Shown: positions 24,279 to 29,895 of the stretch, one piece after another
Layout of the letters: every line of letters begins with the position of its first letter
How positions within the stretch are numbered: position 1 is the first letter of the stretch
NCBI GenBank assembly: GCA_009783295.1
Contig: WRHK01000042.1
Span: 1 to 32,744, forward strand
DNA length: 32,744 nt
Reading direction: 5' to 3'
Origin: Promicromonosporaceae bacterium
Lineage (GTDB): Bacteria > Actinomycetota > Actinomycetes > Actinomycetales > Cellulomonadaceae
The notes under the pieces: model-generated
What the model saw: only the letters and a program-made list of their open reading frames with translations
What the model was told of the DNA's origin: nothing
Database searches by the model: none
Program-made: the position numbers and the translations under genes

Positions 24279-24872
24279 ATGAGCCCCGCCGACCCCGCCG
24301 ACCCGGTCACCGTGTCGATCCACCGCGTGGTCAGCCCCGAGCGCGTGCCGGAGGTGACCGCGTGGGTGCAGGACGGCGTCAACCTCGCCAACCGCTGGCC
24401 CGGGTTCCTCGGGTCGGGGTGGATCCGGGCCGCCGAGGGGTCCGGCGACTGGTACATGCTCTACCGGTTCGCCGACGCCGGACGGCTCGCCGCGTGGGAG
24501 CAGTCGGACGAACGCAGCGCCTGGCTGGCGCGGGGCACGGGACTGGTCGAGGAGCAGCGCGTCCAGCGACGCACCGGCATCGAGGGGTGGTTCGACGCCC
24601 CCGCGCGCCAGGACCAGCCGTCTGGCCCGCCGCTGCTGCCCGCGCCGCCGCGGTGGAAGCAGGCGACCGTCATCTGGCTGGCGTTCTTCCCGGTCAACCT
24701 GACGTTCACGTGGCTGTTCGCGCTGGCCGTGCCCGCGTTCGCGACGTGGCCGCTGCCGCTCCGCGTGCTGGTCACCACGGTGGTGCTCACGCCGATCATG
24801 AGCTACTGGGTGCTGCCGTGGATGACGGGGCGGCTCAGTGGCTGGCTGCACCGGGCCACGAAGCCCGGATGA
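24279..24872 (+). CDS. ABM-like domain fused to two transmembrane helices
   Basis: 197 residues. Residues about 8-100 look like an antibiotic-biosynthesis-monooxygenase (ABM, ferredoxin-like) domain: VSIHRVVSPERVPEVTAWVQ, PGFLGSGWIR, WYMLYRFADAGRLAAWEQS, ERSAWL. After a Pro-rich linker, two hydrophobic helices follow (about residues 127-150 and 155-180), a layout common in actinobacteria. ABM domains can bind small aromatic compounds or haem, but no activity can be assigned. The stop overlaps the start of the DUF2156 gene by 4 bp (ATGA), so the two are probably made together. No clear ribosome binding site precedes the ATG. Confidence 0.8.
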   Translation: MSPADPADPVTVSIHRVVSPERVPEVTAWVQDGVNLANRWPGFLGSGWIRAAEGSGDWYMLYRFADAGRLAAWEQSDERSAWLARGTGLVEEQRVQRRTGIEGWFDAPARQDQPSGPPLLPAPPRWKQATVIWLAFFPVNLTFTWLFALAVPAFATWPLPLRVLVTTVVLTPIMSYWVLPWMTGRLSGWLHRATKPG

Positions 24873-26572
24873 GTTTCACCGTCCCCTCATGCAACGCCAC
24901 CGATACTCCCAAGGTGACCGCACCCAGGACCCGGAGTGCCTACGACCCGCTGCCGGGCCGTCGCCGCCGCGAGCGCGTCCGGTTCTCCGCGTCGACCGTC
25001 GTCGCCGTGCTCGGGGTCATCGGTCTGCTCTCCGCGATCTCGCGTCCGTTCCGGCACCGGCTGCACGCCGTGCTGTCGGTGCTGCCGAGCGTCGTGCCGC
25101 TCACCGCCGCGACCACGCTGGTGCTCGTCTCCGTGGGGCTGCTGCTCATGGCGCGCGGGCTGCGGCACGGCCAGCGGCTCGCGTGGGGGTCGACGCTCGC
25201 GCTGCTCGTGGCCTCGGCGGTGCTGCACGTGCTGCGCGGGTTCGACGTCGAGGAGGCGGCGATCGCGACGGCGGGGGCCGTCTGGCTCGCCACCCAGAGG
25301 GCGTCGTTCGCCGTGCTGCCCGCCAAGGCCACGGTGCGGCGGGCCGTGGGGCTCGGCGTCACCGCGGCCGTGGTGGGCACCGTCATGGGCCTTGTCATCC
25401 ACTGGGTCGAGCCGCGGCCTCGGCTCGACGTGATCGACCGGTTCGTCACCCCGCTGGCGGTCGTGGCCGTCGCGGCGCTCGGGGCGGCCGCGGCGTGGGT
25501 GCTGCTCTCGCCCAAGATCGCGCGGCGGCTCACCACCGACCAGCACCGCGAGGAGCGGGAGCGGGCGCGCGCCGTCGTCGAGCAGTACGGCTCCGGCACG
25601 CTCGACTGGTTCGCGCTGCGGGACGACAAGGACTGGTTCTTCGCCGGGCGGTCCTTGGTGGCGCACGCCGTGCGCGGCGGGGTGTGCCTGGTCTCGCCGG
25701 ACCCCATCGGGCCGGCGGAGGAGCAGGTGGCCGTGTGGTCCGAGTTCCTCGCCTACGTGGAGGAGCACGGGTGGTCCGTCGCCGTGCTCGGCGCCCGGCC
25801 CGAGCGTCTGCCCCTCTACGAGGCGAGCGGGCTGCGGCCCGTCTACCTGGGCGACGAGGCGATCCTCGACTGCCGCGACTTCTCGCTCGCAGGGTCGCGC
25901 TTCAAGTCGCTGCGCCAGTCCGTCGAGCGCGTGCGCCGCGCAGGGTGCACGACGACGTTCCACGACCCCGCGACAATCGGCCCCGAGCTGCGGGCCGAGC
26001 TCGAGGCGCTGCGCGGGCAGAGCCGCCGCGGCGAGGTGGAGCGCGGGTTCTCGATGACCCTCTCGCGGCTGTTCGACCCGCAGGACTCCGGGTTCCTGCT
26101 CGCCGTGACGCGGAACGCCGACGGCCGCGTCGACGCGTTCCTGCAGTGGGTGCCCGCGCCGGGCATCGACGGGTGGTCGCTCGACATCATGCGCCGCCGC
26201 ATCGACGACGACGTCGCGAACGGCGTGATCGAGGCGACCATCGTCGCGACCGTCGAGGAGGTCGCGGCCCGCGGGCGGTCCACGCTGTCCCTCAACTTCG
26301 CCCCCATGCGGTCCGTGCTGGAGGGTGTCGCGGGGGAGGGCCGGCGGCTGGCCGACGTCACCCGGCCGATCCTGGTCCAGCTGTCGCAGCGCACCCAGAT
26401 GGCGACGCTCGCGGCGTTCAACCGGAAGTTCCGGCCTACGTGGGAGCCGCGATACGTGGTGCTCGACTCGGTCGAGTGGGTGGCCGCGCAGAGCCTGGTC
26501 ATGGCGGATGCCGAGGGCATGACCGAGATCCCGGTGATCGGGCGGTTCCTGGGGCGGGCGGCCGCCGCATAG
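24869..26572 (+). CDS. MprF-like protein with phosphatidylglycerol lysyltransferase (DUF2156) C-terminal domain
   Basis: 567 residues; ATG overlaps the previous stop. The N-terminal half has about six hydrophobic segments (residues 40-220); the C-terminal half (about 230-560) resembles the LPG_synthase_C/DUF2156 domain of MprF and LysX, with WFALRDDKDWFFAGRSLVAH, GGVCLVSPDPIGP, GARPERLPLYEASGLRPVYLGDE, LRQSVERVRRAG and LNFAPMRSVLEG. MprF-type enzymes move an amino acid from aminoacyl-tRNA to phosphatidylglycerol, changing membrane charge. The gene ends 1 bp before the tRNA-Lys fragment at 26574, so before the element inserted it abutted tRNA-Lys. Substrate (Lys, Ala or other) is not known. 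Confidence 0.85.
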   Translation: MSFTVPSCNATDTPKVTAPRTRSAYDPLPGRRRRERVRFSASTVVAVLGVIGLLSAISRPFRHRLHAVLSVLPSVVPLTAATTLVLVSVGLLLMARGLRHGQRLAWGSTLALLVASAVLHVLRGFDVEEAAIATAGAVWLATQRASFAVLPAKATVRRAVGLGVTAAVVGTVMGLVIHWVEPRPRLDVIDRFVTPLAVVAVAALGAAAAWVLLSPKIARRLTTDQHREERERARAVVEQYGSGTLDWFALRDDKDWFFAGRSLVAHAVRGGVCLVSPDPIGPAEEQVAVWSEFLAYVEEHGWSVAVLGARPERLPLYEASGLRPVYLGDEAILDCRDFSLAGSRFKSLRQSVERVRRAGCTTTFHDPATIGPELRAELEALRGQSRRGEVERGFSMTLSRLFDPQDSGFLLAVTRNADGRVDAFLQWVPAPGIDGWSLDIMRRRIDDDVANGVIEATIVATVEEVAARGRSTLSLNFAPMRSVLEGVAGEGRRLADVTRPILVQLSQRTQMATLAAFNRKFRPTWEPRYVVLDSVEWVAAQSLVMADAEGMTEIPVIGRFLGRAAAA

Positions 26573-26573
26573 C

Positions 26574-26621
26574 GGTGCCCCGGCAGGGGCTCGAACCCTG
26601 GACCCGCGGATCAATAGTCCG
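26574..26621. repeat. Left attachment repeat: truncated tRNA-Lys 3' half
   Basis: Covers acceptor 3' strand, T-arm and anticodon-stem 3' strand of the minus-strand tRNA. It cannot fold as a tRNA because the 5' half is missing, and the anticodon-loop bases differ from the right copy at two positions (26612, 26615). Confidence 0.88.
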
Positions 26622-26895
26622 TCACGGCGGGTGAAATAGCGCGAAGCGCAGTGGAGGATCAGGCGGCATAAAGGGCGTGTGACCAGCACTAACGGTAGGC
26701 CTGGTAAGCCGGTCGTGAAGCCAGGAGCAGCCGCACGAAGCGTGGTCTTGCTACACGTCTGCTACATATCCCCGTCTACCCCGACGTGTGCGGTTGCTTA
26801 TGGCTACTGTGGCGCTCGATACCGCAACGCCCAGGTGACACCGCAGGAGCGCGAAGGGCGGACGAGAACGCAGGACGAGCCGTGCAGGAAGAGCC
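26622..26895. other. Left end of the element, non-coding
   Basis: 274 bp with no supported ORF. It contains the left arm-type site and a possible promoter zone around 26792-26823 (TTGCTT, 18 bp, GATACC) before the nucleotidyltransferase gene. The end AGGAAG (26887-26892) is the ribosome binding site of that gene. Confidence 0.4.
26749..26766. repeat. Left arm-type integrase site
   Basis: TGCTACACGTCTGCTACA matches 17 of 18 bases of the site at 29753-29770 in the same orientation. Each is itself two TGCTACA copies 11 bp apart, typical of tyrosine-integrase arm sites. Confidence 0.65.
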
Positions 26896-27405
26896 GTGAT
26901 CCCCGACCTTGACCCACTCACCGGGTACCTGCCTTATGTCAGCGACGATCCATACACGACGACGATCCAGGAGGTTCACGACCGATTCGCGACCAACGAC
27001 CGGCGCCGGCGCGTCTGGGACATGTTCGAGCTGTGGGTGGAGGCGCTCGACGACGTCGGACTTCGCGGACCGTTGCGGTTGAGCGGAAGCTACGTCACAG
27101 GCAAGGAGATGCCCGGTGACCTGGATGTCGCCGTCTACGTCAGTCCCTCCGATTACGTTCTTGCCGAGAAGGTGACAACGTCCGCCGCGCACTTGTGGAC
27201 GTGGCACAGTTTGGCTCGGTTCCAACCGAGCTCCGGCTGGGTGTCGTTGGGGGACACCCGTATCCAGCCAGCACTCGGACTGGTGGACGCGTTCTGGGTG
27301 CCAGAGGGACCACACGGGCGGTTGTTTGCGCAAGGATGGACGTCTGAGTTTGTGAACAAGGTTGCCACGGGAGTTCGCAAGGGTTGGCTGGAGGTGGAGC
27401 GGTGA
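26896..27405 (+). CDS. DUF6932-like minimal nucleotidyltransferase
   Basis: 169 residues, GTG start with AGGAAG about 4 nt upstream. The polymerase-beta-type nucleotidyltransferase motif is LSGSYVTGKEMPGDLDVAV: Gly64-Ser65, then Asp75 and Asp77, with Asp131 a candidate third carboxylate. The N-terminus (IPDLDPLTGYLP, then RFATNDRRRRVWDMF) matches my memory of DUF6932 proteins, which begin IP.FD..G.LP and carry GSFVT..E.P.D.DV. Such proteins are related to MNT/AbiEii-type toxins or antitoxins. The metal-binding residues are intact, so it may be active. The stop overlaps the partner gene by 4 bp (GTGA). Codons with T or A in the third position are common. Function is inferred only. Confidence 0.8.
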   Translation: MIPDLDPLTGYLPYVSDDPYTTTIQEVHDRFATNDRRRRVWDMFELWVEALDDVGLRGPLRLSGSYVTGKEMPGDLDVAVYVSPSDYVLAEKVTTSAAHLWTWHSLARFQPSSGWVSLGDTRIQPALGLVDAFWVPEGPHGRLFAQGWTSEFVNKVATGVRKGWLEVER

Positions 27406-28415
27406 GCGCGACCGAGTTCCAGCAGGGCTACGAGAGCCTCTTGCGTGACGCCATCCGTGAGACGGTGCTGAACGCCCGAGACGCCGACGCAGACGCGGCT
27501 GCCTTCTGGTGGGGGGCCCTGAGTGGCCTCGTCCGGTCTGAGCGTGACGAGCAGATCCTGCGGGAAGAGACGGCTCCGACGCAGGTAGAGCTCGACCTCC
27601 ATCTGACTGGTGAAGGCGTAACGGGACACGCTACGAAGGCCAACGACCTTGCAGTGCTGATCAAGAAGCTTTCCGAGTCCACGAAGTTCGTCGCGCGAGA
27701 GATCGCTGGCGCCCGGAAGTGGTCCGAGAACCTCCTCGTTGAGGGAGTCGCTCCGGGTTCTGTGCGCGTCGTGATTCGAGCGCCGGAGTTGCCCGCCGAA
27801 CCGGGGCAGCTGGACGTCGATCCAGGTGAGTCCGCCGACTCGAAGGCATTGCGGCGAGTTGCGTCGCTCTTGACTCTGGCATCGAGCGACGACCTCGCCG
27901 GCGGCGACGATCCGCTCGCGGCCGCGGTCCAAGGCCTGCCGAAGCCTGCGCGGGAGAGCTTGCGGCTCGCCGCCCAAACCGTGGTCGACGCTCGGTGGGA
28001 AGTAGACGGAACAGTACGACGGTGGCGCGAGCCAGAGGTGCAGCTTCGGATCACGTCGCGAGGCGCGAAGCACTTGCGAGACACGCTCGGGCAGAAGGTC
28101 TCGAAGCCAGAGCGCGTCTCGTTCGTCGGGACTCTGGACGGCTTCCGGAGATCGGTTGGCGTTGCGTTCCTGCGGCCCGACGGCGAGGGAGCAGCGCAGA
28201 GTGTCGCAGTCGCCGACGCCGGGCTGTTCATCAAGGTCGCGCGGCTCGCTGCAGAAGAGGATCTGCCAGTGCGGGCCGCCGTCGAGGTCTGGCAGGCCAT
28301 GCGCAAGAACGGGCAGCCGGGTCGGGTATCGCGCCGGCTCATCCATATCGAGGCACTCGGATCTCAGGAGACGCTCGGCGCAGCGCGGTCAGGCATCGTC
28401 TCTGACGCGGAGTGA
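27402..28415 (+). CDS. Unrecognised 337-residue partner of the nucleotidyltransferase
   Basis: 337 residues from the GTG at 27402, preceded by GGAGGTGGAG; start and upstream stop overlap (GTGA). I recognise no family. The N-terminal third is helical and charged (YESLLRDAIRETVLNARDADADAAAFWWGALSGL). A strand-rich middle (VELDLHLTGEGVTG to VRVVIRAPELP) and a helical segment (residues about 145-200) follow. The C-terminal part (about 235-320: RVSFVGTLDGFRRSVGVAFL to RVSRRLIHIEAL) looks like a small beta-barrel. No membrane helix, signal or catalytic motif is evident. Tight coupling to the nucleotidyltransferase suggests a two-protein toxin-antitoxin or defence module, with this protein as target, effector or inhibitor. 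That is inference. Confidence 0.75.
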   Translation: MSATEFQQGYESLLRDAIRETVLNARDADADAAAFWWGALSGLVRSERDEQILREETAPTQVELDLHLTGEGVTGHATKANDLAVLIKKLSESTKFVAREIAGARKWSENLLVEGVAPGSVRVVIRAPELPAEPGQLDVDPGESADSKALRRVASLLTLASSDDLAGGDDPLAAAVQGLPKPARESLRLAAQTVVDARWEVDGTVRRWREPEVQLRITSRGAKHLRDTLGQKVSKPERVSFVGTLDGFRRSVGVAFLRPDGEGAAQSVAVADAGLFIKVARLAAEEDLPVRAAVEVWQAMRKNGQPGRVSRRLIHIEALGSQETLGAARSGIVSDAE

Positions 28416-28436
28416 GGGAGAGCATCCAACGGCGCC

Positions 28437-28568
28437 GTGCACGGCACGACCGGCGCGATCATCGCCGGCATCGCCGGCGCCGTCGGATCCGTCGTGGCGA
28501 CCATCGCCGGCGGCCTCGGCGTCGCCTACCGCCCGCAGCTCGATGCCGCGACGACCCCCGAAGGCTGA
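28437..28568 (+). CDS. Tiny hydrophobic protein (43 aa)
   Basis: GTG start at 28437; residues about 3-30 (TTGAIIAGIAGAVGSVVATI) form one Gly/Ala-rich transmembrane or membrane-active helix, followed by a polar tail. GAGGGAG lies about 15 nt upstream, far for a ribosome binding site. It begins 21 bp after the partner gene and its 3' end overlaps the next ORF in another frame. It could be a holin-like or toxin-like peptide; it may also be chance. Confidence 0.45.
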   Translation: MHGTTGAIIAGIAGAVGSVVATIAGGLGVAYRPQLDAATTPEG

Positions 28569-28683
28569 CCCGCGGCCGGCGCACTGGTACTCGCTCGACG
28601 GTACGCGAGTCGACGGCTGGCAGTGCTCCTGCGGGTTCTTCTTCGCCACCGAGCCGGCCGCGCGGCAGCATCCCTGCCGCTGA
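28543..28683 (+). CDS. Tiny Cys/His protein (46 aa), possible zinc ribbon
   Basis: ATG at 28543, overlapping the 43-aa ORF by 26 bp. Cys28, Cys30, His43 and Cys45 (WQCSCGFFF ... RQHPC) could bind one zinc. The N-terminus is basic and Pro-rich. It ends 8 bp before a strong terminator, which supports it as the last gene of the plus-strand run. Function unknown. Confidence 0.5.
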   Translation: MPRRPPKADPRPAHWYSLDGTRVDGWQCSCGFFFATEPAARQHPCR

Positions 28684-28691
28684 ACGAGGAT

Positions 28692-28725
28692 CGCCCCCGC
28701 TCACCCTCACGGGTGGGCGGGGGCG
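28692..28725 (+). terminator. Strong terminator of the nucleotidyltransferase operon
   Basis: A 15-bp stem (28692-28706 with 28711-28725, one G-U) with a TCAC loop, followed by GTTTCGTC. A similar hairpin with the same trailing sequence occurs at 29349-29386. Confidence 0.85.
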
Positions 28726-28757
28726 GTTTCGTCATGCCCGGGTGATCAGTTGGGGCG

Positions 28758-28788
28758 GGCCCCCGCTACGACGGTCGTATCGGGGGTC
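28758..28788 (-). terminator. Hairpin downstream of the secreted-protein gene
   Basis: CCCCCGCTACGAC (28760-28772) pairs with GTCGTATCGGGGG (28774-28786) with one mismatch and extends by two pairs. It lies 57 bp past the stop of the minus-strand gene ending at 28845. Confidence 0.5.
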
Positions 28789-28844
28789 TTCGCGTCGCCG
28801 AGGTCTCGCGGAGAGGGCTCCGATCGACGTCCCTTGGTCCGTGC

Positions 28845-29165
28845 CTAGTTCAGGCAGTCGGTCCAGCCGATGTTGACGTACAGGGCCGTGGCGACCTGGT
28901 GGTTGCACGGGGTCACCCCGCCGGTCGTGTTCAGCACCCACTGCGGGGCCGGGTAGCCGTCCAGGTTGGTCGGGAACAGGGTGCAGTTGGCGCCGTCGGG
29001 GGTGACTGTGCCGTCGACGTGGATGTGGGGCCACTCGGCCAACGTGACGATGCACGCGGAGCCAGGCGTTGCGGCCGAGGCGGACGTGGCGAGGACGATT
29101 CCGCCAACGATGGACGTGCCTGCGACCAGCGCGAGAGATGCGCCGAGCGCGAGTGTTTTGCGCAT
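28845..29165 (-). CDS. Small secreted four-cysteine protein
   Basis: 106 residues from the ATG at 29165 (AGGA 8 nt upstream). A classical signal peptide (MRKTLALGASLALVAGTSIV, then a hydrophobic core ending ATSASA) should be cleaved near residue 31. The 75-residue mature part has four cysteines (first at residue 38; NCTLF, PCNHQ and the C-terminal DCLN), enough for two disulfides. Trp and Asn are frequent. I do not recognise the family. It is the only minus-strand gene in the element and sits between two terminators with its own upstream palindrome (29251-29267). Confidence 0.7.
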   Translation of the reverse strand: MRKTLALGASLALVAGTSIVGGIVLATSASAATPGSACIVTLAEWPHIHVDGTVTPDGANCTLFPTNLDGYPAPQWVLNTTGGVTPCNHQVATALYVNIGWTDCLN

Positions 29166-29250
29166 GAGTCGATCCTGTTCGGTGAGTGGGACGGCACGTA
29201 AAGAGCGCGCAACGATGCGCGGTCGCGGCGATGTCCGCGGTGCCATTTCC

Positions 29251-29267
29251 TGACCCAGAAAGGGTCA
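29251..29267. promoter_or_regulatory. Inverted repeat upstream of the secreted-protein gene
   Basis: TGACCC-AGAAA-GGGTCA is a perfect 6+5+6 inverted repeat about 86 bp upstream of the ATG at 29165. It could be an operator or a short hairpin; no regulator is known. Confidence 0.35.
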
Positions 29268-29348
29268 CCCGTCATCTCGGGGTCAGCAACCCGAACACCA
29301 TGACGGCTGGTCAGGCGGCATGGACTCCCGAGCGCCGCAGAACGACGA

Positions 29349-29386
29349 CCGCCCCCGCTTCACCCTCATGGTGTCGGCGGGGACGG
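29349..29386 (+). terminator. Second, imperfect copy of the element's terminator
   Basis: The arms at 29349-29364 and 29370-29386 are imperfectly complementary. Bases GCCCCCGCTTCACCCTCA and the trailing GGTTTCGTCATG closely repeat the block at 28694-28736, so one was probably copied from the other. No plus-strand gene is seen immediately upstream. Confidence 0.5.
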
Positions 29387-29421
29387 TTTCGTCATGACCA
29401 GGCCGGTGCGATGCTCGGGGC

Positions 29422-29739
29422 ATGCGTACACGTGCAGGCCGTGCGGCCGAGGCAGGGATCGATGCGGCGACGTCGGGCATCATCAAGGGAATCGCGAAGC
29501 TGGACGAGAAGGTCGGCTCGCCGCGTCCCGACCTCGTGAAGATGGCCGCGCAGCTGCAGCGTGCGCTCGAGGAGCGCCGCGTCACGGCGGCCAACTGGGA
29601 GGCGAAGCGGCCCGGCGGGTCAATGGCGCGCTCGTTCGCCAAGCAGGTCGTCGACCTCGAGACGAAGGTGGCGAAGGCGCAGGAGAAGCTCGCTGCCTGG
29701 GATGCCGCGCATCCTGACGACCCGACGCGTGAGGACTGA
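29422..29739 (+). CDS. Helical 105-residue protein, unknown function
   Basis: ATG at 29422; no good ribosome binding site. The sequence is almost wholly helical and charged, with a Gly/Ala-rich start and a coiled-coil-like C-terminal part (FAKQVVDLETKVAKAQEKLA). There is no membrane segment or motif I recognise. It is the last ORF of the element, 13 bp before the right arm-type site, a position where small phage-derived or accessory proteins are often found. The opposite-strand frame is also open but lacks signals. Confidence 0.55.
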   Translation: MRTRAGRAAEAGIDAATSGIIKGIAKLDEKVGSPRPDLVKMAAQLQRALEERRVTAANWEAKRPGGSMARSFAKQVVDLETKVAKAQEKLAAWDAAHPDDPTRED

Positions 29740-29752
29740 CCCGAGGGGTCGC

Positions 29753-29770
29753 TGCTACACATCTGCTACA
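29753..29770. repeat. Right arm-type integrase site
   Basis: TGCTACACATCTGCTACA, 17/18 identical to 26749-26766 and in the same direction, 49 bp inside the right attachment repeat. Confidence 0.65.
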
Positions 29771-29818
29771 CAAAGCCAGGACCCAAAGCAAAGCAAAGGC
29801 AAAAGTACCTGGTCAGAA

Positions 29819-29895
29819 TGGTGCCCCGGCAGGGGCTCGAACCCTGGACCCGCGGATTAAAAGTCCGCTGCTCTGACCAACTGAGCTACCGAGGC
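29819..29895 (-). tRNA. tRNA-Lys (TTT), intact, with encoded CCA; right attachment repeat inside
   Basis: 77 nt including CCA (29819-29821). Acceptor GCCTCGG pairs with CCGGGGC, D-arm AGCTCAGTTGGTCAGAGC, anticodon loop CTTTTAA with anticodon TTT, T-loop GTTCGAGCC. Its 3' 48 bp repeat at 26574-26621, so the 3' half was supplied by the element on insertion and keeps the tRNA functional. Confidence 0.94.
29820..29867. repeat. Right attachment repeat within tRNA-Lys
   Basis: 46 of 48 bases match 26574-26621; the two differences fall in the anticodon loop. The crossover therefore probably lies in the 38-bp perfect block (29820-29857). Confidence 0.88.

Follow-up and report, generated by a model that had tools for sequence, protein, structure and literature searches.

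An integrase-less 3.3-kb element in tRNA-Lys of a Promicromonosporaceae bacterium, probably a remnant of a temperate actinophage

Elements that retain their attachment (att) sites after losing their integration genes are described, in the excerpts of PMC5704250 that concern them, as cis-mobilizable elements (CIMEs), which are decayed integrative and conjugative elements (ICEs) or integrative and mobilizable elements (IMEs). Excerpts of two further papers describe mycobacteriophages with a tyrosine integrase, a tRNA-Lys attB and predicted arm-type sites flanking the core, namely Pixie (PMC3203893) and Boilgate and Fionnbharth (PMC10865867). Here we analyse a 3.3-kb element at positions 26574-29867 of contig WRHK01000042.1 (32,744 nucleotides, analysed whole and called the window below) from the Promicromonosporaceae bacterium genome GCA_009783295.1, a draft assembly of 119 contigs (G000). 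Like CIMEs, the element keeps both attL and attR and has lost its integration genes; unlike them, it is apparently phage-derived, and its mobilization is only proposed. It shares the tRNA-Lys target and the flanking arm-type sites with the three mycobacteriophages, which differ in being complete phages and are likened to it by description. We conclude that the 3.3 kb are probably what an internal deletion left of a temperate actinophage of the type of G585, a metagenomic prophage from IMG/VR (IMGVR_UViG_3300020598_000039).

The insert lies in a tRNA gene and is bounded by a 48-bp direct repeat (26574-26621 and 29820-29867, 96% identity). ARAGORN called a single intact tRNA-Lys(TTT), at the right copy, and no tRNA at the left copy. 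These features bear out the site-specific insertion claimed in a preliminary description of the window, and paired TGCTACAC sites inside each repeat correspond to the arm-type sites that it had placed at both ends. The ends of the element are made up as follows.

26574-26621, minus strand: distal att copy, the 3' part of tRNA-Lys including the anticodon stem-loop; it matches the intact copy at all but 2/48 positions, and these two lie in the anticodon loop
26622-26748, no strand: core-to-arm spacer, homologous to the corresponding region of the G008 element (77/127 columns) and, less strongly, to that of G585
26749-26767, plus strand: left pair of arm-type sites, TGCTACAC-GTC-TGCTACA; in G582/G584, G583 and G585 the 3' end of the integrase gene follows at this place
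29753-29771, plus strand: right pair of arm-type sites, TGCTACAC-ATC-TGCTACAC
29819-29895, minus strand: intact tRNA-Lys(TTT), the proximal att copy, called by ARAGORN

The arm pairs start 127 bp inside the left repeat copy and stop 48 bp short of the right copy, and an 18-bp sequence, TGCTACACRTCTGCTACA, is found at 26749 and 29753. With N at its variable base, this motif was detected in 2/221 genomes of the family (comparison genomes being one per species), namely G000 and a relative, G008. A looser pattern, GCTACACN{2,3}CTGCTACA, was present in 1/396 genomes of the order, G000 itself, G008 lying outside that sample. The element also stands out in composition, with a GC content of 66.7% compared with 73.0% in the 10 kb to its left and 73.7% to its right, and all five of the strongest outliers in a sliding-window tetranucleotide scan fall within it. 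The exact 18-mer matched 28 stretches in genome contigs, none with an actinomycete title, which we treated as chance, and 13 stretches in viral contigs, among them L050 and L062, which sit at tRNA-Lys-type att sites. A DNA search of the 221 family genomes with the left end returned only the self-match (1/221), G008 being found with a longer query. The left end gave no signal as a folded strand (z-scores of -0.93 to 0.52 over four folds), and a promoter scan found nothing. Neither the element nor TGCTACAC arm sites were described among the literature matches listed (for one search, the best 10 of 683).

Phages with the same arm sites supply the integrase that the element lacks. We searched IMG/VR with two patterns joining arm site and tRNA core, which gave 13 stretches each and three contigs common to both: G582 and G584, whose integrases are identical as printed, and G583. 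The attP in G582/G584 and G583 reads, in order, paired arms, tRNA-type core, about 130 bp, paired arms and the 3' end of a tyrosine integrase gene; the cores belong to tRNAs other than tRNA-Lys, that of G582/G584 being Ala-like by eye. Looser patterns (five stretches each) added G585, a prophage whose contig (31.9 kb) carries an intact tRNA-Lys(TTT) at the right end and a tyrosine integrase (PF00589, E 4.1e-22) directly inside the left arm pair. Two loci of 53-55% GC (L209 and L210) matched one of these looser patterns only. Relatives of the kind to which the preliminary description had pointed, which combine these arm sites with a tyrosine integrase, exist, and in G585 the target is tRNA-Lys itself. 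The ends of G585 match those of the element: the arm-core-arm distances are 84/159 bp in G585, 84/158 in G000 and 83/157 in G008, and the left spacers of G000 and G585 align with a score of 52, compared with a best of 38 among 200 shuffles. Beside its left att, G585 carries an ABM gene (72% identity over 116 amino acids) and, by eye, a GDPD gene, as in this genus, although in reversed order. Near its right end, inspection by eye shows a gene for a hydrophobic protein, then a small Cys-rich gene, then a terminator, the order also present in G000. G585 differs from the element in its size (a contig of 31.9 kb), in carrying an integrase and what look by eye like phage structural genes, in having att copies with identical anticodon loops, and in giving no tblastn match at E<=0.1 to the cargo gene pair described below. 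A further phage contig, G586 (L216, L217), has paired arms and an att of the tRNA-Lys type at one end and its integrase at the opposite end; this layout is a misfit and we did not use it as support. As the preliminary description had stated, the element itself has no integrase: Pfam, PHROGs and PADLOC placed none of its six encoded proteins in an integrase family, and no trace of one appeared when four integrases of the matching type were used as tblastn queries (best E 0.42).

The interior of the element consists of the cargo pair, the apparent end of a late operon and a region past a terminator.

26896-27405, plus strand: cargo gene 1, DUF6932 (PF22014, Pfam E 1.1e-17), 169 amino acids, with a GS...DxD motif
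27402-28415, plus strand: cargo gene 2, a 337-amino-acid partner of no known family; the chosen GTG start overlaps the gene 1 stop
28416-28570, plus strand: hydrophobic gene, 5'-truncated, holin-like by position and eye, about 44 codons short relative to the intact copy on contig C5
28567-28683, plus strand: remnant of a small Cys-rich gene (WQCSCGFFFATEPAARQHPC) with no clear start; its homologue on contig C34 lies in a phage lysis region
28692-28742, plus strand: terminator-like hairpin, common to the G008 element, G585 and the tRNA-Tyr regions of G008 and G010
28845-29165, minus strand: small protein of 106 amino acids and no family, with a signal-peptide-like N terminus by eye
29334-29402, plus strand: second, diverged copy of the terminator region, from sequence comparison
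29422-29739, plus strand: open reading frame (ORF) of 105 amino acids and no family, with no match in the family scans

Homology of the hydrophobic gene to the C5 copy starts at 28426, 11 bp past the stop of gene 2; the gene is truncated at the cargo border. The Cys-rich gene is 82% identical over 150 bp to its homologue on C34, a contig of the same genome, where the homologue comes after a hydrophobic gene (without a Pfam match) and an Amidase_2 lysin, beside tail-like ORFs. Because of this gene context, we take the Cys-rich and hydrophobic genes of the element to be phage late genes; the element thus holds residual, damaged phage genes, the phage nature of the hydrophobic one resting on its position. 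The terminator at 28692-28741 is 84% identical to that of G585 over 51 columns. Two diverged terminator-like regions are found within the element, at 28676-28742 and 29334-29402. Neither the 106-amino-acid protein nor the 105-amino-acid ORF had a match in phages.

These features suggest a course of events. A phage of the G585 type would have used a lambda-like tyrosine integrase to enter tRNA-Lys(TTT) in the region of the anticodon loop, restoring the tRNA at the right end and leaving the 48-bp copy at the left. A later deletion may then have removed everything from the integrase to a point inside the holin-like gene, sparing both att copies and the arm sites and joining the left end and the cargo to the end of the late operon. 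Left over would be the DUF6932 pair, the truncated late-operon end and the genes past the terminator. Such a relic would be of the cis-mobilizable type, in that a matching phage integrase might bind its arms in trans; excision would be expected to be inefficient, since the att copies differ in the presumed overlap. The cargo may have served in defence or exclusion, expressed during lysogeny. The preliminary description had named a satellite and a remnant side by side; we prefer a remnant because a late-type gene that has been truncated, what is left of another late gene and the terminator of a late operon all lie in the right half, which a satellite fits less well.

Several observations weigh against descent by deletion from a G585-type phage. 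The terminator is the only internal sequence match to G585: the hydrophobic and Cys-rich proteins have no tblastn match there at E<=0.1, so the parallel rests on gene order and gene type, and the parent would be a relative of G585 rather than G585 itself. The C5 copy of the hydrophobic gene is not in an evident prophage, and its protein is without a match in phage records. The cargo pair follows the direction of the integrase in viral contigs L179, L181, L182 and L183 (not in L180), from which the minus strand would be expected here; it was found on the plus strand, which a plain deletion does not explain. Finally, the sharing of ends and the presence of intact cargo ORFs in two species could reflect recent mobility.

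The second species is G008, which has a 1.7-kb element (L038 5928-7643) that encodes a SHOCT-domain protein and a small membrane-like ORF, with no integrase seen. Its ends match those of the G000 element and its cargo differs; blastn between the two detected only the terminator and the ends. The left spacers align with a score of 96, compared with shuffle maxima of 44 and 51 (200 shuffles), and the right arms are identical at 25/29 positions, compared with 24/45 in the spacer beside them. The 120 bp inside the arm pairs are 49% and 44% identical, close to shuffles of the left spacer (average 47%, maximum 53%). The leading alternative is a genuine satellite (or non-autonomous cassette) that has retained att and arm sites and nothing else for its mobility, and that a G585-like phage integrase would move in trans, as would suit integrase-less elements with common ends and different cargo in two species. 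Phages do carry matching integrases, and att-retaining elements without integration genes have been described as cis-mobilizable, according to excerpts of PMC5704250 and PMC3146451. Nevertheless, a satellite accounts poorly for the truncated late-type gene at the cargo border, for loop differences between att copies that are present in G000 and G008 and absent from G585, and for the single arm site at the left end of the G008 element. Relatives of the G583/G584 integrases were also not detected at E<=1e-35 in 11 genus genomes, some of them incomplete, and no replication, packaging or regulator gene of the kind carried by phage satellites, such as phage-inducible chromosomal islands (PICIs), was recognized among the six proteins. 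We consider a satellite unlikely. A more specific version, in which G000 and G008 represent a family of minimal satellites with TGCTACAC ends that borrow G585-like integrases, vary their cargo and tolerate the loop change as a mismatch, is in our view somewhat more doubtful.

tRNA-Lys is a variable spot across the genus, and other elements occupy it. G005 has an 8.2-kb element there (L039 5703-13977) with an integrase, a helix-turn-helix (HTH) regulator, a phage capsid gene and a Prim-Pol gene, and G004 a 9.1-kb element (L040 4345-13554) with an integrase, an HTH regulator and a phage capsid gene. These resemble capsid-forming PICIs, here in an actinomycete. The shared target would allow the G000 element to be a decayed PICI-like satellite of this kind; yet the G004 and G005 elements lack TGCTACA sites, their distal repeat ends short of the anticodon loop, and blastn of the G000 element against them gave nothing better than E 0.015 at the DNA level, which makes this origin very improbable. 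In G010, about 9 kb separate tRNA-Lys from the GDPD gene, and no second tRNA copy was found; we did not count this as an element. A chance tRNA-like repeat or an assembly artefact, conceivable in a draft of this kind, is scarcely credible given that the repeat lies inside one 32.7-kb contig, with flanks conserved to relatives and an end geometry common to phages.

The element, on the evidence of sequence, is probably locked in place, because its att copies differ in the presumed crossover and no close relative of a matching integrase was detected in the 11 genus genomes. Both differences in G000 fall in the seven-base anticodon loop, for which the chance would be about 0.02 if they were randomly placed. 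The G008 copies differ mainly in the loop, including a lost base, and at one position outside it. Recombination by lambda-type integrases is sensitive to overlap mismatches. The loop differences may, however, have been inherited from attP instead of arising by decay. The tRNA-Lys phage Boilgate has five core differences in its attP, and tolerance of mismatches may vary from one such integrase to another, according to excerpts of PMC10865867.

Candidate helpers were sought more widely. The genome itself contains 11 PF00589 matches, and paired arm sites were absent from the 2.7-3.5-kb loci around them. Relatives of the G583/G584 integrases are present in 32/221 family genomes; paired arms were found at 0/10 of the loci read around them, nor were they found in five regions read around phage integrases 29-40% identical to that of G583. 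One locus, G013:C2:92563-95804 (L190, L032), has a G583/G584-like integrase about 2.4 kb from a tRNA-Lys-like match and no GCTACA sites in the stretch read; it is possibly a tRNA-Lys element that uses other arm sites.

Outside the element, a further gene adjoins the left att.

24869-26572, plus strand: mprF-like gene (LPG_synthase_C, PF09924, E 2e-62)

Its start codon (ATG) overlaps the ABM-type gene's stop, and it sits between the conserved flank and the left att. The preliminary description had predicted an empty site with this gene directly next to tRNA-Lys, which we did not see. In G001 the tRNA-Lys site is empty, with a GDPD gene within about 130 bp of the tRNA and no second copy in 14 kb. 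The mprF-like gene is not at the tRNA-Lys spot in G001, G005 or G008, and the homologues of G004 and G001 are located elsewhere. The gene was probably acquired separately, next to the tRNA hot spot.

The cargo pair belongs to a wider group. Gene 1 is a relative of PDC-M63A in PADLOC (E 9.3e-8), as are 4/4 of its aligned homologues, and residues G64, D75, D77 and D131 are invariant in both alignments (four rows each), residue 65 being S or G. We take its GS...DxD motif to be of the nucleotidyltransferase type. Together with a weak match to 4ebj in a PDB profile search (E 0.087), this motif makes gene 1 a candidate nucleotidyltransferase-like protein; its AlphaFold model (mean predicted local distance difference test score (pLDDT) of 43) was too low in confidence to be useful. 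Gene 2 matched no family in Pfam, PHROGs or PADLOC, its predicted fold (mean pLDDT 63) had no PDB match at E<=0.001, and no relative was found among genome contigs. We detected relatives of gene 2 on four plasmids, one phage and four viral contigs, and in 11/396 genomes of the order at E<=0.001 including G000, four of these matches being weaker than 1e-5. Gene 2 is present in 16 of the 20 loci examined, with gene 1 adjoining it in 14 of the 16 (the exceptions being L085 and L086), the profiles for the pair having been built partly from the same loci. DUF6932 and its partner recur together, as a conserved pair, on plasmids and phages of actinobacteria.

The pair is followed by a tyrosine integrase gene (PF00589) in viral contigs L179-L183, on the opposite strand in L180; this neighbourhood speaks for a phage origin of the element. 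An HTH-type gene before the pair was weak in L179 and L180, under the Pfam cut-offs, and none was supported in L182 or L183; in Gordonia phage Holliday, the gene preceding the pair is annotated as an immunity repressor. In L183 (3956-5418), the partner of the DUF6932 gene that precedes the integrase is very remote from gene 2 (E 4.9e-5 against its profile), a hint that partners may have diverged or been exchanged. Genes for exclusion or defence often sit beside integrases or immunity repressors, and the pair, lying in such positions, is therefore a reasonable target for tests. The candidate system PDC-M63 of PADLOC shares a related first gene with our pair and differs in the second: 0/5 aligned gene 2 proteins and 0/5 further partners matched a PADLOC model, PADLOC's own second-gene model not having been inspected. 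The one test found of PDC-M63AB gave no evidence of defence activity, according to excerpts of PMC12409345. Of the possible new defence module put forward in the preliminary description, a real and conserved gene pair on phages and plasmids stands; none of our results shows defence, although a role of this kind is plausible.

These findings suggest a way in which a phage gene pair may persist in a genome after the prophage is lost. They also offer a rule by which such relics might be recognized, namely the absence of an integrase together with arm-site pairs at a constant spacing from a tRNA core. The DUF6932-partner pair is a conserved, mobile and uncharacterized module, and it is the part of the element most worth testing.

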